Assembly (NCBI GenBank): GCA_944362695.1
Contig: CALVTQ010000061.1
Coordinates: 1 to 37,198, forward strand
Reading direction: 5' to 3'
Source: an uncultured Clostridia bacterium
Lineage (GTDB): Bacteria; Bacillota; Clostridia; Christensenellales; Aristaeellaceae
Length of the DNA stretch: 37,198 bases
Shown here: positions 24,159-35,648 of the stretch, piece after piece
Numbering within the stretch: the first letter of the stretch is position 1
Layout of the letters: every line of letters begins with the position of its first letter
Position numbers and translations under genes: made by a program
The notes under the pieces: model-generated
What the model was told of the DNA's origin: nothing
What the model saw: only the letters and a program-made list of their open reading frames with translations
The model's database searches: none

Positions 24159-24764
24159 ATGAAAAAGCAGATCTCCTTCCGGCAGTACCGCGCGATGGAT
24201 ATTTTCATGTTTACGGCCCTTCTGTGTGTGTGCGAGACGCTCATCACGCTGGGGGCCACCCGCTGGTTCACGGGCGAGCCGTACACGCTCTCGGTGACGC
24301 CGGCGGTGACGGCCATCGTCATGGTGCGCTGGGGCGGCTTTGCCGCAATTCCCGCAGTTCTTGGGGCATTCGTGTTCTGTCTGGTTTCGGGGGCGACGCT
24401 CTCCCAATTCGCCATCTACTGCATCGGCAGCCTGGCCGCGCTGGTCCTTGTGCCCGCAATCCGGCGGATGGGATGGAAGAAGCTCCACGAAAACGCGCTC
24501 CTTCTGCTGTTCTACGGCCTGCTGACGGCGCTGCTGATGCAGACCGGCAGGGCGGTGCTGGCGCTTTTGATGGGCAACAGCCCGGCCATCTGCGCGGGCT
24601 TCATCATGACGGACACGCTGACGGAGGTCTTTACGATGCTCATCGTATGGATCGTGCGGCGGCTGGACGGCGTGCTGGAGGAGCAAAGACACTACCTCAA
24701 GCGTATTGCGGACGAAATGGAAAAAGAACGTAAGGCGGCTCAGAGCGTCGGCTCCGAGCAATGA
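24159..24764 (+). CDS. S-component-like integral membrane protein
   Basis: A 201-residue polytopic membrane protein with about five or six helices and a cytoplasmic, charged C-terminus (LEEQRHYLKRIADEMEKERK). The layout (MKKQISFRQYRAMDIFMFTA start, AVTAIVMVRWGGFAAIPAVLGAFVF-type helix pair, cut here for length) resembles ECF-transporter substrate-binding S components, but no ECF ATPase or T component is encoded nearby. It leads the transporter operon, with lplB-like permease 22 bases downstream. GGAGG precedes the ATG at 24159. It may bind a vitamin or sugar or act as an accessory of the ABC importer; this is inference. Confidence 0.65.
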   Translation: MKKQISFRQYRAMDIFMFTALLCVCETLITLGATRWFTGEPYTLSVTPAVTAIVMVRWGGFAAIPAVLGAFVFCLVSGATLSQFAIYCIGSLAALVLVPAIRRMGWKKLHENALLLLFYGLLTALLMQTGRAVLALLMGNSPAICAGFIMTDTLTEVFTMLIVWIVRRLDGVLEEQRHYLKRIADEMEKERKAAQSVGSEQ

Positions 24765-24786
24765 TCAAGCAAGGGGGTTATGGGCA

Positions 24787-25833
24787 ATGGCAGCGAAAGC
24801 AGCGGATTTTCTTGTTTATGACAAGGCAGCCGGTGTTTACCGTGAGAACCCGGAACAGTTGGTACGTGACGACGTGGAGAAGCACACGTGGAAACACATA
24901 GGCCTCACCATCATCAAGGACTGGCGTCTTTATCTGATGCTGGTGCCGATGCTGGTCGTGTTCCTGCTGTGGCGCTATCTGCCGATGTACGAGCTGCTGG
25001 GCTGCTTCAAGGTGCCCGACGAGGTTCTGCCGGTCGCCGATCAGTACTTCTCCGGCTTCTCGTATTTCAAGAGCCTGCTGGTGGGCACGGACGCGCCGGA
25101 CTTCTGGCGCGCGCTGCGCAACACCTTCCTGCTGAGCTTCTACGGCCTGTGCTTCGGCTTCCCGATGCCCATCATCCTGGCGCTGTTCTTCAATGAGATC
25201 CGCTCCAACATCGTGCGCAGCACCTGCCAGGTTCTGACCTACCTGCCCAAGTTCATGTCCACGGTCGTCATGACGTCGCTGGTCACGATGCTTGTCAAGC
25301 AGGGCGCCATCACCAGCGGCTACGGCATCATCAGCCAGGCGCTCGAAGCGCTGGGCATCATCAGCGCCGAGACCGCCAAGGCCGGTCTGCTCAACAACCC
25401 GGACTTCTTCCGCGCGATCTATCAGATCTCCGGCATCTGGGAGGGCGCGGGTTACGACTCCATCGTCTACTTCGCGGCGATCATCGCGATTTCCCCGACC
25501 AGCTACGAGGCCGCTCAGATCGACGGCGCGGGCAAGATGGCCCAGATGCGCTACGTCGTCATCCCGGGCATCCTCTCCACGGTCGTCATCATGCTCATCA
25601 CCCGTATCGGCGCGCTGCTGAATATCGGTTATGAAAAGGTCCTGCTCCTGTACAACCCGAACACCTACGTCACGGCGGACGTGGTCTCCACATTCGCCCA
25701 GCGCAAGGGCATCGAGGGCGGACAGAAGGGTCTGGCCTCCGCGGCGGAAATGATGAACAACGTCATCTCCATGCTGCTGGTCATCAGCGCAAACACCATC
25801 GCCCGCAAGGCGTCCGACACGTCGCTGTATTAA
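24787..25833 (+). CDS. Sugar ABC transporter permease, LplB type
   Basis: A 348-residue inner-membrane permease of the carbohydrate uptake CUT1 group. The first helix is at about 46-66, directly followed by RYLPMYELLGCFK, the LplB hallmark. The EAA loop that docks the ATPase is YEAAQIDGAGKMAQMRYVVI (240-259). The N-terminal ~40 residues are an extra hydrophilic extension. The start at 24787 follows AAGGGGG at nine bases. The second permease begins 15 bases downstream. No ATPase is adjacent; the UgpC-type ATPase five genes on is the probable motor. Confidence 0.92.
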   Translation: MAAKAADFLVYDKAAGVYRENPEQLVRDDVEKHTWKHIGLTIIKDWRLYLMLVPMLVVFLLWRYLPMYELLGCFKVPDEVLPVADQYFSGFSYFKSLLVGTDAPDFWRALRNTFLLSFYGLCFGFPMPIILALFFNEIRSNIVRSTCQVLTYLPKFMSTVVMTSLVTMLVKQGAITSGYGIISQALEALGIISAETAKAGLLNNPDFFRAIYQISGIWEGAGYDSIVYFAAIIAISPTSYEAAQIDGAGKMAQMRYVVIPGILSTVVIMLITRIGALLNIGYEKVLLLYNPNTYVTADVVSTFAQRKGIEGGQKGLASAAEMMNNVISMLLVISANTIARKASDTSLY

Positions 25834-25848
25834 GGAGGGAGAAGTCAA

Positions 25849-26739
25849 ATGAAAAGAAAGCTTGAGACCTCCGAGCAGATATTCAAGATCATCAGCTACA
25901 CGCTGCTGTGCATCTTCTCGCTGGCGTGCCTGTATCCGTTCGTCTACGCCGTGTCGGCGTCGATCTCCGGCGCGGATGCGGTCGACTACAACCGCGTCGT
26001 GCTCTTCCCCAAGGATGTCCAGTTCGAGGCCTTCGCCCGCATGTTCAACGACAACATGTTCTGGAACTCCTATTCCAACACGCTGTTCCTGACGTTCTAC
26101 GGCACGATCTGGGCGCTGCTGGTCGCCATTCTGGGCGCCTACGCGCTCTCGAAAAAGCGCCTGCTGTTCCGCCGTTTCTTCAACTTCTTCCTGGTGTTCA
26201 CGATGCTGTTCTCTGCGGGCCTCGTTCCGCAGTACCTGAACTACCTGGCCACCAAGGACGTCTTCAACTCCATCGGCATCACGGACGACAAATGGCTGGT
26301 CGTCATCGCGATGGGCATGGCGGCGATGAACATCATCCTGCTGCGCAACGCCTTTGAGGGCGTGCCCAGCGAGATCGAGGAGGCCGCCATCGTCGACGGC
26401 GCGACCGAGTTCCAGGTGCTGAGCAAGGTCTACATCCCGATGTGCAAATCCACGATCGCGACGGTCACGCTGTTCTTCGCGATCTCCCGCTGGAACGGCT
26501 ACTTCTGGGCGCGCCAGATGATCTCCAACAGCAACGAGCATCCGCTGCAGGTCTTCATCCGTCTGCGCCTTGAGGAGTTCACCGACCCGGAGATGATGGC
26601 CGGCTGGAACGAGGTTTACTCCGCCGACTCCGTCATCTACGCGCTGATCGTCTGCTCCATCGTGCCGATCCTCATCATCTATCCGTTCATCCAGAAATAC
26701 TTCGCCAAGGGCGTCAACGCGGGCGGCGTCAAGGAGTAA
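25849..26739 (+). CDS. Sugar ABC transporter permease, YtcP/LplC type
   Basis: A 296-residue partner permease. It has six hydrophobic segments, the characteristic SLACLYPFVYAVSASIS start, and an EAA loop EIEEAAIVDGATEFQVLSKV (175-194) preceded by the NAFEGVPSE stretch. The C-terminus KYFAKGVNAGGVKE is the conserved tail of this group (AKGVMIGAVKG-like). It forms the heterodimeric channel with the LplB-type protein. A full AAGGAGGGAG site precedes the ATG. Confidence 0.95.
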   Translation: MKRKLETSEQIFKIISYTLLCIFSLACLYPFVYAVSASISGADAVDYNRVVLFPKDVQFEAFARMFNDNMFWNSYSNTLFLTFYGTIWALLVAILGAYALSKKRLLFRRFFNFFLVFTMLFSAGLVPQYLNYLATKDVFNSIGITDDKWLVVIAMGMAAMNIILLRNAFEGVPSEIEEAAIVDGATEFQVLSKVYIPMCKSTIATVTLFFAISRWNGYFWARQMISNSNEHPLQVFIRLRLEEFTDPEMMAGWNEVYSADSVIYALIVCSIVPILIIYPFIQKYFAKGVNAGGVKE

Positions 26740-26797
26740 TCCTTCGCCCGGACGATTCCGTGAAACGGCGATACGAAAGACGAGCACCGAAAGATTT

Positions 26798-26878
26798 CCT
26801 ATTCCCATAGGCAGGTTTGGTGTTTACCGGAATTGAGTCCGGTCGACATAACGTCTCATGCACCGGAGCATTCCGGTG
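26798..26878 (+). promoter_or_regulatory. Three tandem hairpins before the solute-binding protein gene
   Basis: CCTAT-tccc-ATAGG (26798-26811), ACCGGA-N6-TCCGGT (26826-26843) and CACCGGA-gcat-TCCGGTG (26861-26878) follow one another in the 162-base gap. The last two reuse the same stem. None has a U-run, so they more likely set mRNA stability or processing, raising solute-binding protein output over that of the permeases. Confidence 0.55.
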
Positions 26879-26901
26879 ACAAATAAAAGGAGGAGATTCA
26901 C

Positions 26902-28980
26902 ATGAAGCGTATTCTCGCGATGCTGATGGCCGTGGCCATGATGATGACCATGTTCGTCAGCACGGCTTCCGCCGAGGCGGCGGAGCTGACGTACGCCGAG
27001 GGCACCGTGCTGCGCATGGCCACCGGCTACAACAACAAGAAGACGGGTCTGTTCTTCGATGCCGACGTCGCCGGTGAGGGCATCACGCTGGCCGACGGCA
27101 AGACCTATATGACCGGCGACCTGAAGCCCACCTGGGTTGAGGTCGAGAACAAGCTCGGCGTCAAGTTCGAGAACCAGTACCAGGGCAACAGCGCCTCCAA
27201 GGAGTTCGACTTCTGGAAGGACCGCCTGGCCGAGGTTGACATGATCAGCGGCACGGCTGCGAAGCTGACCGAGTACGGCGAGGCCGGCTCCATCGTCAAC
27301 ATCGCTGAGTACCTCGATCAGATGCCCAACTTCAAGGCCTACCTCGAGGCCAACCCGATCGTCCGCCTGTCCATCACCGGCAACACCGACACGGGCGCGA
27401 TCTACTTCTCCCCGTACTTCGACGGTGTCAACGACATCGAGCGTATGCCGCTGATGCGCGTTGACTGGGTGCAGAAGCTGCTGGACGGCGAGGGTGAGTT
27501 CACCGCCGAGGCCTCCAACAAGCTGGCTGCTCCGGTTTACACCCCCTACATGCCGACCTCCGGCAAGGTTGAGGTCGACGTCGTGACCCTCGACGGCACC
27601 GCCACCGAGAAGGTCACCAAGGACTACGACGCCGCGGGCAACATCGTTGAGGCGATGAACAACGCCGGCGAGCTCGACGGTGTGGCCGCGGTCAACATGC
27701 TGCGCACCTACATCGACACCGCTTACAACGGCTACTACGGCACCACCCGCTCCAACCTGTTCTGCGGCCAGAACGCTGCTTGGGATGTGGACGAGCTCGT
27801 CGCGCTGCTGCGCTGCGTCGTCGCCAACCCGCAGACCCTGAACGGCACCGACAACGTCGAGGGCCTGTTCTCCCGTGAGGACAACAACAACCAGCGCCGC
27901 GTCGACATGTTCCGCTTCGCGGGCGTGCTCTTCGGCGTGCGCGGCCTCGAGTCCCGTCAGGATTACCTGTACGTCGGCGCTGACGGCTATCTCTACGATG
28001 CCCGCCAGAACGACGATGCCTACATGGCGATGGCCAAGATGAACGAGATGGTTCAGGAAGGCCTGATCTCCCAGTCCTTCGTCGATGGCTCTGAGGAGTC
28101 CACCGCGACCATGCTGGAGAACGATCTCGGCTTCATGCACTACGACTACAACCAGACCCAGACCGTTTACAACGAGACCAAGCTCCAGGACGGCGAGAAG
28201 TACATGGCCGTGATGGTGCCGGTCGCCCGCTGGTATGACGGCACCAACGAGGATGGCGTGTACATGCGCTTTACCGAGAGCTGGCGCTCCGTCAAGACCG
28301 ACGGTTGGGGCATCTCCGTCGCCGGCGTCGAGGGCAACCCCGACAAGCTGAACGCCGCGCTGAAGCTGATCGACTACGCCTTCAGCCCGGAGGGCCAGAT
28401 CCTCATGAGCTATGGCCCGGATGCGTTCATCAAGACCAACGATGACGGCTCCTATGTGACCTTCAACTTCAACGGCATCGAGATGCCGGTGATCGCCGAC
28501 GCCACCTACGCTGAGCTGTGGGAGAAGGCTTCCGGCAACTACACCAACTACGCCCGTCAGTACCTGGGCTCCACGCTGAGCTTCGCCAAGAGCCAGGCGT
28601 TCGAGTATCAGTGCACGCACGAGGTCGGCAAGGAAGGCGCGGGCTACATCTCCAAGGCCATCGCGCTGGGCACCATCAAGCATCCGGAGCTGGCCGTGAC
28701 CGAGAATCCGTGGTACACCTCCGTCCCGACCGTTCTGCCGAACACCAAGACCGAGAACGAGACCCTGAAGAGCTACAGCTCCCTGACCGAGATGTTCAGC
28801 TCCTCTAAGGACGGCGCGAACAAGTTCGTCGACATCATCGTCAACGGCTTCGCGCAGGAGGGCTTCTTCTCCGCCGAGGAAGCGATCGAGACCGTGGCCG
28901 GCACCAACTCCGGCGCCGACTACCTGTTCCTCAAGCAGGAAGCCTACGATCGCCTGATCGAGTACTACAACGCGCTGTAA
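26902..28980 (+). CDS. Extracellular solute-binding protein of the sugar importer
   Basis: A 692-residue secreted binding protein, longer than the usual 430-560 of this class. The signal peptide (MKRILAMLMAVAMMMTMFVS to TASA, about 24 residues) lacks the lipobox cysteine that normally anchors Gram-positive binding proteins. The mature part shows the two-lobe pattern of type 1/LplA-like proteins: a strand near ENKLGVKFENQYQG, the hinge region around MEARVDWVQ-like MPLMRVDWVQKLLDGEG, and SWRSVKTDGWGISV with NAALKLIDYAFSPEGQ, typical of oligosaccharide binders. It follows the permeases in the same operon. Its codons are enriched for T- and G-ending forms compared with neighbours, in line with high expression. 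Confidence 0.88.
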   Translation: MKRILAMLMAVAMMMTMFVSTASAEAAELTYAEGTVLRMATGYNNKKTGLFFDADVAGEGITLADGKTYMTGDLKPTWVEVENKLGVKFENQYQGNSASKEFDFWKDRLAEVDMISGTAAKLTEYGEAGSIVNIAEYLDQMPNFKAYLEANPIVRLSITGNTDTGAIYFSPYFDGVNDIERMPLMRVDWVQKLLDGEGEFTAEASNKLAAPVYTPYMPTSGKVEVDVVTLDGTATEKVTKDYDAAGNIVEAMNNAGELDGVAAVNMLRTYIDTAYNGYYGTTRSNLFCGQNAAWDVDELVALLRCVVANPQTLNGTDNVEGLFSREDNNNQRRVDMFRFAGVLFGVRGLESRQDYLYVGADGYLYDARQNDDAYMAMAKMNEMVQEGLISQSFVDGSEESTATMLENDLGFMHYDYNQTQTVYNETKLQDGEKYMAVMVPVARWYDGTNEDGVYMRFTESWRSVKTDGWGISVAGVEGNPDKLNAALKLIDYAFSPEGQILMSYGPDAFIKTNDDGSYVTFNFNGIEMPVIADATYAELWEKASGNYTNYARQYLGSTLSFAKSQAFEYQCTHEVGKEGAGYISKAIALGTIKHPELAVTENPWYTSVPTVLPNTKTENETLKSYSSLTEMFSSSKDGANKFVDIIVNGFAQEGFFSAEEAIETVAGTNSGADYLFLKQEAYDRLIEYYNAL

Positions 28981-28992
28981 TCGACAGCATTA

Positions 28993-29063
28993 GGGAAACC
29001 ACCCCGTGGCGGAGCTTCGGCTCCGTCATGGGTTCCCGTCAGCCCCTCGCACGGAGAGGCTGA
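28993..29063 (+). promoter_or_regulatory. Two hairpins after the solute-binding protein gene
   Basis: A long stem capped by a C(TTCG)G tetraloop spans 28993-29037 (GGCGGAGC / GCTCCGTC core) and a second stem TCAGCC-CTC / GAG-GGCTGA spans 29039-29063. There is no U-run, and genes in the same direction continue. They look like 3' stabilisers or partial terminators that set the binding protein above downstream genes. Confidence 0.6.
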
Positions 29064-29128
29064 TCGGAGCCCATGTGAAATTCCGCGCCAGCTGGTAACG
29101 CCGGATCGCGCCGAAACAGGAGGTTATT

Positions 29129-29725
29129 ATGTACAAAAAACAGTTGACCCTGCAGAAGATCCTTTGCTTCGCAGCTCTGGCGGCCTGCGGAATTTTGTTC
29201 CTGTATTCTCTGGGCCTGTCCACCGACCTTTACGACGGTCTGTTCTATGCGCTGCCCGAGGAGGCCAAGCTGGAGACGGCGAAGGTCAACGTGCCGGGCG
29301 CGGAGGTCTACTACCAGATTCAGCCGTTCAACCGCGAGCTGCTGGGCAGCTCCATCGCGCTGATCCTGCTGGCTTGCGTGCTGTTCCTGACGAACACGCA
29401 CAGCCGCAGGCGCTACTACATCGGCAACGCGATTTCGACATTCGGCTTCGCGGCGGCCGGCGTGGGCGTGAGCGTGTGGGCGCATAACCAGATCGAGTTC
29501 TACAAGGCGAAGTTCCTTCAGATCGACTTCGAGACATACGCCAAGTATGCCCAGAGGCGCCGCAAGGTCTACATCGACTCGACATTCTGGTTCGACGTAC
29601 ACACCGTCGTGATCGCGATTCTTTTGATCGTCTGCGCGGCGCTGGTGATCAACTTCTTCTTTAAGCTCTACCTGATGAACGCCGAGAAGAAACTCGTGAA
29701 CGAAGGAAAGGGAGTGAAGGCATAA
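29129..29725 (+). CDS. Uncharacterised four-helix membrane protein (transport locus 1)
   Basis: A 198-residue protein with four predicted helices (about 10-28, 72-90, 98-116, 158-178). Long extracytoplasmic loops lie between helices 1-2 (YDGLFYALPEEAKLETAKVN region) and 3-4 (FYKAKFLQIDFETYAKYAQR region). The C-terminal tail is basic. No family is recognised. It overlaps the next gene by one base (TAATG) and begins 148 bases after the binding protein. AGGAGG precedes the ATG. Similar topology to the proteins at 29725 and 31332 suggests a common origin and a joint complex (inference). Confidence 0.8.
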   Translation: MYKKQLTLQKILCFAALAACGILFLYSLGLSTDLYDGLFYALPEEAKLETAKVNVPGAEVYYQIQPFNRELLGSSIALILLACVLFLTNTHSRRRYYIGNAISTFGFAAAGVGVSVWAHNQIEFYKAKFLQIDFETYAKYAQRRRKVYIDSTFWFDVHTVVIAILLIVCAALVINFFFKLYLMNAEKKLVNEGKGVKA

Positions 29726-30231
29726 TGACCCAGAACCTGAACGACGCGAAAACCATTGCGCTGGATCGTATGCGCTATACGAAGAACACCTTCTCCTCCC
29801 GCATGTGCTATCTGGCGATCCTCTTTGACGTCTTCTACTTCGTGAGCATCTACGAGTCCGACGTGGGCAACTGGTATTATCAGTGGCTGATCGGCGTGTC
29901 CATCGTCTACAACCTCGTGTTCATGCTGATCTCGTTCCTCGCATCCGAGGGCGTGAAGAACTACAAGGCCGGTTACGGATATCTGCAGTTCGGCCTGGGC
30001 ATCGGCCAGCTCGTGCGCATCTTCATCCTGCCGAACCTCGCGCACGCCGCCATGACCAAGCAGGTCATCGACAAGAAGCAGGTTGAAGTGCCGGTCATGC
30101 AGGACGGACAGTATTTCCTCGTCATCGCGCTGCTGATTGCGTCCGCAGTGTGCTGCTTTGCAGCGGGCGTTGTCGCCGTGAAACGCAGCCGCACGCTGGC
30201 TGCCTACAATGCCTCTCTTGAGAAGGCGTAA
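29725..30231 (+). CDS. Uncharacterised four-helix membrane protein (transport locus 2)
   Basis: A 168-residue protein with four predicted helices (about 27-45, 52-72, 84-104, 129-152) and a cytoplasmic start rich in charged residues. The loop between helices 3 and 4 carries KQVIDKKQVEVPVMQDGQYF. I do not recognise a family. The start overlaps the stop of the preceding gene, and the ATPase gene follows after 12 bases, so it is tightly embedded in the operon. Confidence 0.8.
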   Translation: MTQNLNDAKTIALDRMRYTKNTFSSRMCYLAILFDVFYFVSIYESDVGNWYYQWLIGVSIVYNLVFMLISFLASEGVKNYKAGYGYLQFGLGIGQLVRIFILPNLAHAAMTKQVIDKKQVEVPVMQDGQYFLVIALLIASAVCCFAAGVVAVKRSRTLAAYNASLEKA

Positions 30232-30243
30232 AGGAGACGCACT

Positions 30244-31317
30244 ATGGCAAACATCAGCTTACAGCATCTGGATAAGATCTACGACAACAACGTACAGGCC
30301 GTCTACGATTTCAATCTGGACGTGAAGGACGGCGAGTTCATCGTTCTGGTCGGCCCGTCGGGCTGCGGCAAGTCCACCACCCTGCGCATGGTCGCGGGTC
30401 TGGAGGATATCTCCAAGGGCAAGCTGCTGCTGGACGGCAAGGACATCACCACCGCGCCCGCCAAGGACCGCGACATGGCGATGGTCTTCCAGAACTACGC
30501 CCTCTACGGCCACATGACCATCTATGAGAACATGGCCTTCTCCCTGACGCTGCGCAAGGAGGACCCGAACGTCATCCACAAGAAGGTGCTCGCGGCGGCG
30601 GAGATCCTGGGCCTGACCGATCAGCTCAACAAGAAGCCCAAGCAGCTCTCCGGCGGCCAGCGTCAGCGCGTGGCCATGGGCCGCGCCATCGTGCGCAGCC
30701 CGAAGATCTTCCTGTTCGACGAGCCGCTTTCCAACCTCGACGCCAAGCTGCGCGGCGCGACCCGCCGCGAGATCCTGCTGCTGCATAAGCGCATGAACGC
30801 GACCATGCTCTACGTCACGCACGACCAGACCGAGGCGCTGACGCTGGCGGACCGCATCGTGTGCATGTCCATGGGCCATGTGCAGCAGGTCGGCACGCCG
30901 CTGGAGCTCTACGACACCCCGGCGAACCTGTTCGTCGCGAGCTTTATCGGCCTGCCGCCGATGAACTTCTTTGACGTGACGGTCGGCGATGGCGAGCTCA
31001 AGGGCAAGTACTTCACCTACAAGCTCAGCGACGCGCAGAAGGCGCTGCTGGGCAGCTACAAGGGCAAGGACATCGTGCTCGGCGTCCGCCCGGAGGACAT
31101 CGCGACCGGCGGCGACATCAAGGTCGATGTGTTCTCCAACGAGAATCTGGGCATGAGCACGCTGGTGCATGGCAGCCTCTGCGGCGCCAAGACCGCGGAC
31201 GCGCAGATCACCTGCAAGCTGCGCGGCTGGTGCGATTACAGGCAGGGCGACGGCGTGGCCGTGCAGTTCAAGAAGGTCCACTTCTTTGACAAGGAAACGA
31301 CCAACGCCATTCGCTGA
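30244..31317 (+). CDS. UgpC/MsmX-type sugar ABC transporter ATPase (first copy)
   Basis: A 357-residue ABC ATPase of the CUT1 importers. Walker A GPSGCGKS (37-44), Q-loop FQNYALYGH (82-90, where Pro is usual before His but Gly is present), signature LSGGQ (135-139), Walker B LFDEP (158-162) and the H-loop THDQTEAL are all intact, so it should hydrolyse ATP. The C-terminal TOBE-like regulatory domain carries VLGVRPEDI. It probably drives the LplB/YtcP permease pair. A second such ATPase lies at 34572. Confidence 0.94.
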   Translation: MANISLQHLDKIYDNNVQAVYDFNLDVKDGEFIVLVGPSGCGKSTTLRMVAGLEDISKGKLLLDGKDITTAPAKDRDMAMVFQNYALYGHMTIYENMAFSLTLRKEDPNVIHKKVLAAAEILGLTDQLNKKPKQLSGGQRQRVAMGRAIVRSPKIFLFDEPLSNLDAKLRGATRREILLLHKRMNATMLYVTHDQTEALTLADRIVCMSMGHVQQVGTPLELYDTPANLFVASFIGLPPMNFFDVTVGDGELKGKYFTYKLSDAQKALLGSYKGKDIVLGVRPEDIATGGDIKVDVFSNENLGMSTLVHGSLCGAKTADAQITCKLRGWCDYRQGDGVAVQFKKVHFFDKETTNAIR

Positions 31318-31331
31318 AAGGAGTGTTGACC

Positions 31332-31901
31332 ATGGCCAATCAGGGCAAAAAGCAGCGCGGCGGCCTGAAGGAGTTCATCCGCAAGACGATCGTCTCCCTC
31401 AAGCGCAAGCCGCAGACCATCCCCATGCTGGTGCTGGCGGTGGCGTTCCTCTACTATTCGCTGAACCTGACGAACATCTCCGACACGACGGCCAAGCTGC
31501 AGCTCCCGGGCATGGGCCTGAGCGGCTTCTGCACGATGCTGTTCTCGATTCTGGGCTTCGTGTCCTTCCTCAACGCCTATCCGCACCGCAAGAAGACGAA
31601 CATCCCGATGCTCGTGATCATGTTCATCATGCTGGGCATCCTGATCTTCTGCGACACGTACTATGTGAGCTGCATCAACACGGCTGTGACCCGCGAGGTC
31701 AACCCGATCGTCATCGACGAGAGCATGGCCTACATCAACGAGGCCAAGAGCATGCTCGGCGTGCATCGCGTGATCGTCGTGCTCGGCGCCGTGCTCACGC
31801 TGCTGGTGCCGGTGCTGCGCAAGGCGCTGCGCAAGATCGATACGTCCCTGCCGGTTGAGGAGACGGGCAACATGGACGCCATCATCCTGAGCGAGGAATA
31901 A
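31332..31901 (+). CDS. Uncharacterised four-helix membrane protein (transport locus 3)
   Basis: A 189-residue protein with four predicted helices (about 29-46, 60-78, 89-108, 144-162). It starts with a basic cytoplasmic segment (MANQGKKQRGGLKEFIRK). The loop between helices 3 and 4 (SCINTAVTREVNPIVIDESM) mirrors the layout of the proteins at 29129 and 29725. No family is recognised. The ATG at 31332 is chosen because AAAGGAG lies eight bases upstream; a GTG nine bases earlier overlaps that site. It sits 14 bases after the ATPase. Confidence 0.78.
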   Translation: MANQGKKQRGGLKEFIRKTIVSLKRKPQTIPMLVLAVAFLYYSLNLTNISDTTAKLQLPGMGLSGFCTMLFSILGFVSFLNAYPHRKKTNIPMLVIMFIMLGILIFCDTYYVSCINTAVTREVNPIVIDESMAYINEAKSMLGVHRVIVVLGAVLTLLVPVLRKALRKIDTSLPVEETGNMDAIILSEE

Positions 31902-31905
31902 TCCC

Positions 31906-32529
31906 TTGAAGAAAGACAAGCCGGATCAGCCGGAGAAGAAGCAGGCTTCCTATTATAAGCTGCACACCGAAGCGGTGGAGGATCTGGTCACGGCCGACAG
32001 CGAGAATACACCGCGGTATTCGCGCGAGGAGCTGGAAAAATACCGCTCCGGCAAGCTCGAGATCCGCTTCCCCGAATGGCTGAAGGTCATCTTCATCAAG
32101 TTCTGGTTCTACGGCGCGGTATGCTTCTTCGTGTTCATGGGACTGGGCATGCTCGTGCCGAACCAGATCGACATGCTGTTCATCGCGGCCATCATCATGG
32201 GCATGGTGACCGACCTGCTCATCAACCATTTCCTGCGCTTCGTGGAGAAGCTCCCCGGCGGCAGCGCGCGCTACATGATGGTGACGCGGCGCGGCGCGGT
32301 GGGCTTCGGCATGAACCTGATGTATGGATTTGTGCTGATCTTTCTGGTGGTCACGGTATACAATGCGATCAACTCGGCGATCTTCGCGATCACGGGCGGC
32401 GACCCGAACACGCGGCTGCTGAGCGTGGAGCCGATCTTCTTCGGCATATTCACCACGGCGGCAGACATGCTCTGCGTGACCATCCGCAACACGATCAGAC
32501 AGATCGTCACCGACGCCATGCGCAAGTGA
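31906..32529 (+). CDS. Uncharacterised membrane protein with cytoplasmic N-terminus (transport locus 4)
   Basis: A 207-residue protein. About 60 hydrophilic N-terminal residues (including RYSREELEKYRSGKLEIRFP) precede four hydrophobic segments near 62-82, 85-105, 134-157 and 172-190. The TTG start at 31906 lies four bases after the previous stop, with GAGGAA inside that gene's end as ribosome site. No known domain is seen. It completes a block of four unknown membrane proteins around the ATPase, followed 28 bases later by GH105. Confidence 0.75.
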   Translation: MKKDKPDQPEKKQASYYKLHTEAVEDLVTADSENTPRYSREELEKYRSGKLEIRFPEWLKVIFIKFWFYGAVCFFVFMGLGMLVPNQIDMLFIAAIIMGMVTDLLINHFLRFVEKLPGGSARYMMVTRRGAVGFGMNLMYGFVLIFLVVTVYNAINSAIFAITGGDPNTRLLSVEPIFFGIFTTAADMLCVTIRNTIRQIVTDAMRK

Positions 32530-32557
32530 ACCGGCGAAAGCCGCAGCGAGGAATGCA

Positions 32558-33688
32558 ATGTATAAGAAAATCGACAGCTACGTGCTGCATCTGATCGAGC
32601 AGTCTTCCCCTGAGAAGACCGCGTGGAACATCGAGCGCGTGCGCCAGGGCAAGCCGGCGTCGTGGAATTACATCGACGGCTGCATGCTCACGGCGCTTCT
32701 GGAAATGGCGCGCATCACGGGCGACAACCGCTATTCCGATTTCGTCGAGCACTTTGTCGACAGCTTCATCGGCGAGGACGGTTCCATCCGCACCTGGGAG
32801 GCCGACAAGCAGACGCTCGATGACATCAATGAGGGCCGCGTGCTCTTCCCGCTGTATGAAATGACGGGCAAGGAGAAGTACCGCAAGGCTGCCGAAAAGC
32901 TGCATGCGGCGCTCGAGACCCAGCCCCGCACGTTCGAGGGCAGCTGGTGGCACAAGGCGATTTACCCCAATCAGGTCTGGCTGGACGGCATCTACATGGC
33001 GCAGGTCTTCTCCGCGCTGTATGAGAAGCACTTCGGCCAGGGCGACTATTCCGACGTGATCGGACAGCTTCGCATCGTCCGTTCGCATATGTTTGACGAA
33101 AACAAGCGCCTGTACATCCACGGCTACGACGCGAGCCGCACCGCCTTCTGGGCCGACAAGGAAACCGGCCTGTCAAAGAGCTTCTGGCTGCGTGCGATGG
33201 GCTGGTTCGCCATCGCGCTGGTTGATCTGGCCGAGATCCTGCCGCAGGGCAGCGAGCAGGCCGAGGTCGCCGCGCTGCTTGCCGAGATGCTGGAAGGCGT
33301 CGCGCAGTATGCCGATGATGAGACGGGTATGTACTGGCAGGTCGTCGACCAGGGCGGCCGCGAGGGCAACTATCTGGAGACCAGCGGATCGAGCATGATG
33401 GCCTACGCCATGCTCAAGGCCGCGCGGCTCGGGATTCTGCCGCAAGAATATGCCGCCAAAGGCCAGAAGACCTTCGACGGCATCGTGAGCAAATATCTGA
33501 AATTCCATGACGAGGGCATCGACCTGGGCGGCATCTGTCTTGTCGCCGGACTGGGCCCGGAGAACAACCGCCGCAGGGACGGCACGTACGAATACTACAT
33601 TTCCGAGCCCGTCGTGAGCAACGACGCCAAGGGCGTGGCGCCGATGGTGCTGGCCTACACGGAGATTCGCCGCATCAGTCAAGCGTGA
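32558..33688 (+). CDS. GH105 unsaturated rhamnogalacturonyl hydrolase (YteR/YesR type)
   Basis: A 376-residue cytoplasmic (alpha/alpha)6-barrel glycosidase without signal peptide. It removes the unsaturated galacturonic acid that pectate or rhamnogalacturonan lyases leave at the end of oligosaccharides. The motif YPNQVWLDGIYMAQ (136-149) puts the catalytic Asp at 143, the same number as in Bacillus YteR, and NYIDGCML and WLRAMGWF are typical. GAGGAATGCA precedes the ATG. Its position at the end of the importer operon indicates that the imported substrate is a pectin-type unsaturated disaccharide or oligosaccharide. Its end overlaps the convergent regulator gene by 14 bases. Confidence 0.93.
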   Translation: MYKKIDSYVLHLIEQSSPEKTAWNIERVRQGKPASWNYIDGCMLTALLEMARITGDNRYSDFVEHFVDSFIGEDGSIRTWEADKQTLDDINEGRVLFPLYEMTGKEKYRKAAEKLHAALETQPRTFEGSWWHKAIYPNQVWLDGIYMAQVFSALYEKHFGQGDYSDVIGQLRIVRSHMFDENKRLYIHGYDASRTAFWADKETGLSKSFWLRAMGWFAIALVDLAEILPQGSEQAEVAALLAEMLEGVAQYADDETGMYWQVVDQGGREGNYLETSGSSMMAYAMLKAARLGILPQEYAAKGQKTFDGIVSKYLKFHDEGIDLGGICLVAGLGPENNRRRDGTYEYYISEPVVSNDAKGVAPMVLAYTEIRRISQA

Positions 33689-34463
33689 TCTTATGGCTGT
33701 CGGAGTCGGATGTCTCCGGCAGCAGCGTCGCCTTCTGGCGGCTGTACTCGCCGGGTGAGACGTCGTATCGCTTCTTGAACAGGCGCGAGAAATACAACGG
33801 ATCACGGAAGCCGCATATGTGCGCAATCTTGGCGATGCCGCCTTCGGCACTGCCGGACGCGAGCATGTCGGCGGCGACCTGAAGCCGGAGATTGGTCAGA
33901 TACTTGTGGGGTGTCGTGCAGACCTCCTGCCGGAACATGCGGCAGAGATAGTCGTAGCTGTACGGCATGGAGGAGAGGAACGCGTCCAGCTCGAAATTGG
34001 GATTGGCGTAGTTCAGCATGATGCTCTGCTCGATCTCCTCGACGATGCGGTTGCGCGGATGAGAGGTTCGGCTCAGGCTGATATGGCGGACGATGAGGTT
34101 GCCGTAAGATGAAAGCAGGGCCGCCCGTATCTCGGGATCGCCGCGGAAGATGTAATGCGCATCGGCGAAAAGATGGCGAAGCGACTGATTCGCATCGTCG
34201 CGCATGAGGGCCGGCTTTCGCAGGGACAGCGTGGCGTTGTCGATGTTCAGATGGATATTGGTGAAGCCGCCGCTGCTCTTGTTCTCGTGCGGGGTATCCG
34301 GCGGGATGACGACGACGTCCCCCTCGGCATAGGGCAGCTCGAAGTCCTCGAATATGAAGCGGCCCGACTCGCCCGTGCAGTAGACCAGCTCCCAGTTCTT
34401 GTGCTTGTGCCGGCTGACGTTATAGGCCAGAAGGTGCCTGCCGGCGAAGATAATATCGTTCAT
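33675..34463 (-). CDS. AraC family transcriptional regulator of the pectin locus
   Basis: A 262-residue one-component regulator. The N-terminal cupin-like sensor (HKHKNWELVYC and YAEGDVVVIPPDTPHE, about 18-61) should bind a sugar. The C-terminal two helix-turn-helix motifs are visible in LDAFLSSMPYSYDYLCRMFR and IAKIAHICGFRDPLYFSRLF, ending in the AraC signature YDVSPGEYSRQ. It faces the GH105 gene and is divergent to the second ATPase gene, so it may regulate both neighbouring units. The start codon at 34463 has a weak TTGAGGTGA ribosome site. Confidence 0.92.
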   Translation of the reverse strand: MNDIIFAGRHLLAYNVSRHKHKNWELVYCTGESGRFIFEDFELPYAEGDVVVIPPDTPHENKSSGGFTNIHLNIDNATLSLRKPALMRDDANQSLRHLFADAHYIFRGDPEIRAALLSSYGNLIVRHISLSRTSHPRNRIVEEIEQSIMLNYANPNFELDAFLSSMPYSYDYLCRMFRQEVCTTPHKYLTNLRLQVAADMLASGSAEGGIAKIAHICGFRDPLYFSRLFKKRYDVSPGEYSRQKATLLPETSDSDSHKITLD

Positions 34464-34571: not shown

Positions 34572-35648
34572 ATGGCATACCTTACGCTGAAAAACATCAA
34601 CAAGATCTACCCCAATGGCTTCCACGCCGTGCATGACTTCAATCTGGAAGCTGAGCGGGGCGAGTTCATCGTGTTTGTCGGGCCTTCCGGCTGCGGCAAA
34701 TCCACCACGCTGCGTATGATCGCGGGTCTGGAGGATATCAGCAAGGGCGAGTTCCTCATCGACGGGCAGCTGGCCAACCAGTGGGGCCCGCGCGAGCGCG
34801 AGATCGCGATGGTGTTCCAGAGCTATGCGCTTTATCCGAACATGACGGTGTATGACAACCTCGCTTTCGGCCTGAACCTTCAGGGCGTGGACGAGGACAT
34901 CATCGAGGAGCGCGTGCAGAAGACCGCCAAGATCCTCGGCCTGACCGATTATCTGGACCGCATGCCGCGCGCGCTTTCTGGCGGTCAGCGCCAGCGCGTC
35001 GCCGTCGGCCGCTCGATCATCCGCAAGGTCGGCATCTTCCTGATGGACGAGCCGCTCTCCAATCTCGACGCCAAGCAGCGCGTCACCATGCGCTCGGAGA
35101 TCACGCAGATCCACCGCGAGACCGGCGCGACGACCATCTACGTCACGCATGACCAGACCGAGGCCATGACCATGGCGGACCGCATCGTCGTCATGAAGAA
35201 CGGCTATATCCAGCAGATCGGCACGCCCAAGGAGGTCTACTTCAACCCGGTGAACGTGTTCGTCGCGGGCTTCATCGGCGAGCCGCCCATGAACTTCATC
35301 CGCCGCACGGTCAAGAACGGATGCATCACCATCGGCAAGGGCACGTTTGATCTGTCCGCCAAGCTCGGCAAGGACACCGCCAAGTACGAGGGCAAGGAGA
35401 TCGTGTTCGGCTTCCGTCCCGAGGGCGTCGTGCTCGGCAAGCAGGAGAACAGCTACGTGACGGGCGGCATGGTGGAGCTCACCGAGATGCTCGGCGACAA
35501 CGCCAATGTCTACATCGACATCGACGGCAGCAAGTCCATTCTCAAGGTGACGCCGTTCGAGATCCCGAAGATGGACACCGAGGTCACCTTCTCCATCCCG
35601 GTGGAGAACGCGTATCTGTTCGACGGCGAGACCGAAATGGTCATCTGA
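34572..35648 (+). CDS. UgpC/MsmX-type sugar ABC transporter ATPase (second copy)
   Basis: A 358-residue ABC ATPase with intact Walker A GPSGCGKS (37-44), Q-loop FQSYALYPN, signature LSGGQRQRV, Walker B LMDEPLSNLDAK and H-loop THDQTEAM, plus a C-terminal regulatory domain (GFRPEGVVLGKQEN). Such MsmX-like ATPases are often shared by several importers. It is monocistronic or joined to the MATE gene, and is not next to any permease. It may energise the LplB/YtcP pair in parallel with the copy at 30244, or serve other uptake systems elsewhere. Confidence 0.94.
   Translation: MAYLTLKNINKIYPNGFHAVHDFNLEAERGEFIVFVGPSGCGKSTTLRMIAGLEDISKGEFLIDGQLANQWGPREREIAMVFQSYALYPNMTVYDNLAFGLNLQGVDEDIIEERVQKTAKILGLTDYLDRMPRALSGGQRQRVAVGRSIIRKVGIFLMDEPLSNLDAKQRVTMRSEITQIHRETGATTIYVTHDQTEAMTMADRIVVMKNGYIQQIGTPKEVYFNPVNVFVAGFIGEPPMNFIRRTVKNGCITIGKGTFDLSAKLGKDTAKYEGKEIVFGFRPEGVVLGKQENSYVTGGMVELTEMLGDNANVYIDIDGSKSILKVTPFEIPKMDTEVTFSIPVENAYLFDGETEMVI

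Follow-up and report, generated by a model that had tools for sequence, protein, structure and literature searches.

A conserved gene block of gut Clostridia combines a type I importer, presumably of pectic oligosaccharides, with five unclassified membrane proteins

The window analyzed here, the whole 37,198-nucleotide stretch of CALVTQ010000061.1, is one contig of a 2.93 Mb draft genome of an uncultured Clostridia bacterium, and it carries a nine-gene block (24159-32529, all on the + strand) in which the genes of an ATP-binding cassette (ABC) importer are interspersed with five genes for further membrane proteins. The block opens with S, a multi-helix membrane protein of 201 residues with the predicted fold of an energy-coupling factor (ECF) S-component (24159..24764). 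It is followed by two BPD_transp_1 permeases that we call, by presumed likeness, LplB-type (24787..25833; PF00528, E 2.4e-07) and YtcP-type (25849..26739; PF00528, E 1.6e-14), and by a solute-binding protein (SBP) of 692 residues with a signal peptide and no lipobox, related to AlgQ by profile match to the PDB (26902..28980). Next come the tetraspan proteins memA (198 residues, 29129..29725) and memB (168 residues, 29725..30231, overlapping the memA stop by one base), a UgpC/MalK-type ATPase (30244..31317; NF008653, 434.1 bits at a cut-off of 432; PF00005; OB_MalK, PF17912), and two more tetraspan proteins, memC (189 residues, 31332..31901) and memD (207 residues, 31906..32529, with a TTG start and a 60-residue inner N-terminus). 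A GH88-family hydrolase, probably acting on unsaturated uronyl oligosaccharides, completes the series (32558..33688, + strand; PF07470, E 4.9e-83); we take it to be GH105/YteR-like, and a homologue was present in 39 of 48 loci. Gaps between genes range from -1 to 28 bases, except for 162 bases between YtcP and SBP and 148 between SBP and memA. These positions and this order agree with a first-pass annotation of the window, which had proposed a pectin importer operon carrying four membrane proteins and an S-component-like protein. Type I importers are generally described as having five parts, namely an SBP, two permeases and two ATPases, and the core features of the CUT1 kind are present here (two BPD_transp_1 permeases, a MalK/UgpC-type ATPase with an OB domain, a cognate SBP), with five membrane genes in the block beyond that core.

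To describe how constant this arrangement is, relatives were collected from draft genomes, mostly metagenome-assembled. A memB scan of named genomes gave 365 encoding stretches, the best 80 of which were used; by title these 80 came from Clostridia or clostridial families, save one Solobacterium, and many originated from goat, sheep, deer or buffalo gut. The DNA around these matches made up 144 loci, 107 of them with the complete nine-gene set, and after repeats were merged all nine genes were found in 86 of 121 distinct loci, a recurrence that cannot be put down to chance. Among the other 35 loci, 33 stop at a contig end where the missing genes would lie, one has memA and memB in one frame (L060), and one holds a divergent cassette (L218). 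The frame in L060 (11574-12635, - strand) runs through 354 codons and is either a natural fusion or an error of the draft sequence. An out-of-order flag fell on four of the 144 loci; two (L081, L086) are explained by start sites placed too far upstream, and the remaining two (L145, L156) are apparently the same two contigs. Every strong homologue whose surroundings were examined lay inside this block, and the company of LplB/YtcP and UgpC genes was constant in every locus with enough DNA, which supports the accessory role proposed in the first-pass annotation, with the extra proteins dedicated to this importer; homologues lying mainly apart from ABC importers, the outcome that would have refuted it, were not seen. 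The same gene order occurs in families f10, f14, f18 and f35, where divergence can be considerable: the f14 membrane proteins are 22-33% identical to those of the window (L093), and memA of L189-L194 is 24-32% identical.

The spread of the block is narrow. memB was detected in 14 of 60 relatives (13 strong, the window's own genome counted), memD in 42 of 150 genomes of the home family, that of the window's genome (40 strong), and memC in 13 of 248 genomes of the order (12 strong); in a phylum sample the memC profile matched only 1 of 398 genomes, the window's own. In a class sample memD was found in 5 of 371 genomes (4 strong) and, in the family of one of these matches, in 7 of 150 (6 strong). 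A search with the SBP profile gave a similar picture, with matches in 37 of the 150 home-family genomes (judging by identifiers, the sample already used for memD), and 35 of these are among the 40 with a strong memD match. The other five of the 40 had memD without the SBP: in four of them (G019, G153, G185, G188) the contig breaks off ahead of the SBP gene or inside it, and in the fifth (G189) memD lies on a tiny contig. Two had the SBP without memD, namely G032, where the contig ends within memC, and G078 (SBP 541 bits), which carries a second cassette type described below. In the class sample the SBP profile matched 2 of 236 genomes at E 1e-15, with few candidates scored per genome, and no wide spread was found. 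The block thus belongs to families f1, f10, f14, f18 and f35, with a fragment in f42 (L201; ATPase, memC and memD on a 3 kb contig). Marginal homologue matches arose elsewhere (G031, G077, G150, a second match in G105, G296, G048:C9, G1080, G1246); scanning of the regions in G031, G077, G296, G048:C9 and G1080 revealed no block, and a plain permease pair lay near the G1080 match.

Pfam and NCBIfam recognise both permeases, the ATPase (UgpC subfamily, barely above cut-off) and the hydrolase, and no family at cut-off was found for the window's S, memA-D or SBP. When relatives were scanned one by one (37 S, 43 memA, 43 memB, 41 memC, 48 memD and 31 SBP), only scattered weak matches appeared, in a table that did not include cut-offs; the best of them (E 7.7e-05) concerned one memA member, and no family recurred in more than ten members. 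A known Pfam or NCBIfam identity for S and memA-D was therefore rejected, since the matches are weak and vary between members. YesL (DUF624) is a membrane protein of the B. subtilis pectin importer locus and is linked to this transporter class; DUF624 was not among the matches listed for S, memA-D and their relatives (for the memC relatives, 25 of 29 families). Sequence profiles compared with solved structures likewise gave no relative for memA, memB or memD; the only matches of S and memC were weak and to unrelated proteins.

Scanned as single sequences, memA, memB, memC and memD show 3, 2, 4 and 3 clear hydropathic helices, respectively, but hydropathy averaged over 98-101 relatives gives four helices in each, as the first-pass annotation had claimed, and the charges place both ends inside. 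Its further observation that three of them share a long loop between helices 3 and 4 also stands, this outer loop measuring 42, 31 and 38 residues in memA, memB and memC against 26 in memD. Of all loops, the inner one joining helices 2 and 3 is the most conserved in memA, memB and memC (the commonest residue has a mean share of 0.82, 0.76 and 0.76), and the outer loops of these three are less conserved (0.45-0.73). The resemblance had suggested one protein family, a view that did not survive comparison by hhalign: no homology was detected among memA-D and S, with a probability below 3% in all ten pairs, and duplication from one ancestor was rejected on this basis. Judged by their sequences, memA-D are four separate families, alike in shape only. 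AlphaFold2 models were made for S and memA. The memA model is an all-helical bundle (predicted local distance difference test, pLDDT, 90.6) with no Foldseek match in the PDB at E <0.001. A Claudin/TARP-type tetraspan fold has a beta-sheet in outer loop 1, and such a fold was considered for memA and left unsupported, the model being all helical and the PDB matches non-significant (CD81, E 0.35; TARP gamma-2, E 0.84).

A second type of cassette was encountered in L218 (2810-9963; genome G1214, family f35) and L226 (1746-8839; genome G078, home family), and G1214 also carries the first type (L217). Here the order is LplB, YtcP, SBP, a memA relative, a memB relative, the ATPase, a protein in the place of memC, for which four helices are predicted in L226 and three in L218, and a memD relative; an S gene was not found in either cassette. 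In profile comparison the A, B and D proteins pair with memA, memB and memD at 97.9, 97.6 and 98.8%, respectively, and with nothing else. The neighbours are heparinase-like, with genes for DUF4962 and Hepar_II_III_C domains in both loci and an Alginate_lyase match in L218. Thus memA, memB and memD, and probably memC, have accompanied the importer clade through a changed neighbourhood and presumably a changed substrate as well, and S accompanies the pectin version of the importer. In the loci examined, this clade of gut Clostridia always encodes the importer together with four or five additional membrane proteins. That the extra genes are functionally unconnected with transport and merely hitch-hike in a conserved operon is barely credible given that their order holds across several families at low identity and in two cassette types. 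Conversely, the constant company, the ATPase gene fixed between memB and memC, retention in both types of cassette and the single fusion of memA with memB together make a functional coupling of the extra membrane proteins with the importer very likely.

S is the first gene of the block wherever it is found. Its AlphaFold2 model (pLDDT 94.9) supports a fold like that of an ECF S-component, as the first-pass annotation had suspected: the three best PDB matches by Foldseek are all such proteins (ThiT twice and 5edl, probability 1.00), with E 8e-3 and a template modelling (TM) score of 0.57-0.63 for ThiT 4tkr, E 0.06 and TM 0.49-0.50 for 5edl, and the folate S-component 5jsz_C at rank 19 (E 2.5). 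The predicted fold opens the alternative that S, with some of memA-D, forms a second ECF-like transporter or a sensor that shares the block ATPase and merely occupies the same operon. Several features make this a slim prospect. Among the ten block proteins there is no EcfT and no paired EcfA-type ATPase, ECF modules elsewhere in the genome having lain outside that search; the block ATPase is of the UgpC/MalK type with OB_MalK; and the second cassette type keeps A, B and D without S. The block thus resembles ECF transporters such as those of the ThiT and 5edl S-components in the predicted fold of S, and differs from them in that the partner core of S is here a type I importer with a binding protein.

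The SBP profile matched AlgQ1 (1y3n, E 3.5e-27), AlgQ2 (E 9.8e-26) and Smon0123 (5gub, E 2.6e-19) in the PDB; the window SBP gave no match as a lone query, and no Pfam SBP family was found in it or its relatives. It is longer than the solved AlgQ chains (692 versus 490-516 residues), and the cassette SBPs of family f14 are longer still (L093, L189-L192; 849-1002 residues). Around the block lie genes for pectin and uronate enzymes, including GH28 (L093, L065), KduI (L193, L217), UxaC (L093, L193), a pectinesterase (L065) and a short-chain dehydrogenase in L193 that may be KduD. Together with the SBP matches to AlgQ1/AlgQ2 and Smon0123, these neighbours indicate a uronate oligosaccharide substrate and point to unsaturated galacturonate or rhamnogalacturonan oligosaccharides as the presumed ligand, and the gene context supports the pectin assignment of the first-pass annotation. 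In one home-family locus the SBP gene is split over two frames of the draft genome (L071, 12868-14860, - strand).

Characterized importers of related substrates share parts of this layout. In the available portions of the sources, AlgQ2 is described as binding alginate and as working with AlgM1-AlgM2/AlgS-AlgS, a complex that has been solved (PMC5717064), and Smon0123 as binding unsaturated glycosaminoglycan disaccharides and working with Smon0121-0122/0120-0120, whose ATPase is encoded in the operon (PMC5430744). The Sphingomonas alginate importer therefore resembles the present one in its two permeases, its ATPase, an SBP of the same family and a polyuronate class of substrate, and the Streptobacillus importer in SBP kinship, uronate disaccharides and an ATPase of its own in the operon. 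Unlike the block, the first is described there as four subunits plus SBP, with no S-fold or tetraspan subunit, and the second without extra membrane subunits. The B. subtilis importers YtcQP-YteP and YesOPQ are similar in permease type, by name, and in taking up rhamnogalacturonan or polygalacturonan; the portion of the source available describes each as an SBP with two permeases powered by the shared MsmX, and describes no S-fold or tetraspan partner (PMC5730181). A literature search over the titles and abstract beginnings of open-licence papers found none on tetraspan or S-fold partners of such importers, which does not prove that there is none.

How the SBP is held at the membrane bears on another possible function of the tetraspan proteins. 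In the home family a lipobox-like pattern within the first 60 residues occurs in just 6 of 39 cassette SBPs, the window's not among them. Loss of the lipoprotein pathway was discarded as the cause, since Lgt is present in 58 and LspA in 50 of 60 home-family genomes (positive in 9 and 10 of 14 control genomes, Bacillus subtilis not being among the positive Lgt controls). A diderm envelope as the cause found no support either: Omp85 was detected in 0 of 100 home-family genomes (7 of 14 controls positive), which makes an outer membrane unlikely in this family. With the anchor mostly missing, no outer membrane to be expected and sizeable outer loops in memA, memB and memC, the four tetraspan proteins might serve mainly to tether the SBP. 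We consider this quite improbable, because in other families 15 of 15 SBPs of the cassette carry a lipobox and the four proteins are retained nonetheless (the C protein of L218 being of unproven kinship), and because the outer loops of memA, memB and memC are less conserved than the inner 2-3 loop. Moreover, three ordinary CUT1-type operons examined in home-family loci have no such membrane proteins (the L047 operon being cut by the end of its stretch), and their first-gene products also show no lipobox (L047, 15545-17176; L068, 1264-2622; L071, 2981-4195), one of the three being a Pfam SBP. Compensation by memA-D for an absent lipid anchor is weakened by the same two observations, of lipobox SBPs alongside memA-D and of ordinary operons with neither.

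The first-pass annotation had further suggested that the membrane proteins might be a docking site for a shared ATPase. This idea found no support: every locus long enough to show it has an ATPase gene within the block, and the enzyme is therefore most simply the importer's own. The extra proteins have diverged faster than the core, with a median identity to the window of 43-55% for S and memA-D against 74-85% for the SBP, permeases and ATPase (38-46 loci per gene). Such change is as expected for peripheral rather than catalytic parts, and it fits equally well the alternative that memA-D and S serve the importer as factors for its assembly, stability or retention and are not stable subunits of it. 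The same genetic coupling would be expected of such factors, and the alternative deserves to be kept in view even though we judge it unlikely; the fixed position of the ATPase gene between memB and memC, the retention of five different proteins together and the memA-memB fusion count against it without deciding the matter.

The interpretation that we favour as probable is that the block specifies a single multi-subunit importer, of type I and for uronate (pectic) oligosaccharides, with obligate auxiliary membrane subunits, the whole of which we infer to form a physical complex. The core would be a normal CUT1 importer made of the AlgQ-related SBP, the LplB/YtcP permeases and its own UgpC-type ATPase, probably as a dimer, and around it would stand five auxiliary subunits, the protein with the S-component fold and the four unrelated tetraspan proteins. 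The latter would most likely pack against LplB/YtcP, and since their inner 2-3 loop is the best conserved, memA, memB and memC are probably in contact with the ATPase or with the permeases on their coupling side. These contacts may stabilise the transporter, or perhaps gate it, for bulky and charged substrates, and the S-like protein would add a membrane-embedded element in the pectin version. The imported unsaturated oligosaccharides would then be cleaved by the adjoining hydrolase and enter uronate metabolism. An analogy is offered by Mce importers with accessory membrane proteins and by TARP-type channel subunits, which are likewise dedicated small membrane partners, with no homology to those described here.

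Several points weigh against this interpretation. The reconstituted Smon tetramer, according to the part of the source available, suffices for SBP-stimulated ATPase activity (PMC5430744), and the alginate, Smon and B. subtilis importers are described, in the portions of the literature cited above, without extras, which therefore appear dispensable for the transport chemistry as such. The Foldseek E-values for S are weak (best 8e-3, none <0.001) despite the probability of 1.00, and S, being missing from the second cassette type, falls outside any universal set. The protein in the memC place of that cassette matches memC at only 5.4% probability, so that it shares the position with homology unproven, and in memD an outer loop is slightly better conserved than the inner 2-3 loop (0.61 versus 0.58). 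Finally, the synteny count is biased, since it was memB, memC or memD that led to most of the loci, and the SBP search corrects this bias in the home family and the class sample only.

A broader proposal, which we put forward tentatively and hold to be possible rather than likely, is that the block represents a new architecture of ABC importer, in which four unrelated tetraspan subunits, joined by an S-fold subunit in the pectin version, form a second membrane module that permanently surrounds a type I core, and which exists in at least two substrate versions for fragments of acidic polysaccharides. If this were true, five new membrane protein families would share one job, and to our knowledge this would be the first importer to join a type I core and the S-component fold. 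Were the extra proteins true subunits, type I importers could gain auxiliary subunits as ion channels do, the S-component fold would have found a further use beyond ECF transport, and a testable role would fall to five unclassified protein families of little-cultured bacteria of the herbivore gut.

Beyond the hydrolase, the window encodes an AraC-type protein on the - strand (33675..34463; HTH_18, E 1.7e-17, and AraC_binding), a possible local regulator whose homologues occur in 25 of 48 loci. On the + strand it also encodes a second MalK-type ATPase (34572..35648; PF00005, OB_MalK). The gene of this ATPase stands near the block in many home-family loci and was not seen near it in L189-L194; its product is a candidate shared ATPase for the ordinary importers. 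Scans for promoters (6 found, 3.6 expected) and terminators (14 found, 8.4 expected) were not used. Within the block, the gap between SBP and memA (28978-29128) is predicted to form RNA hairpins of very high stability (-70.2 kcal/mol, z -4.2), which perhaps shield the SBP message or reduce expression of the genes behind it.

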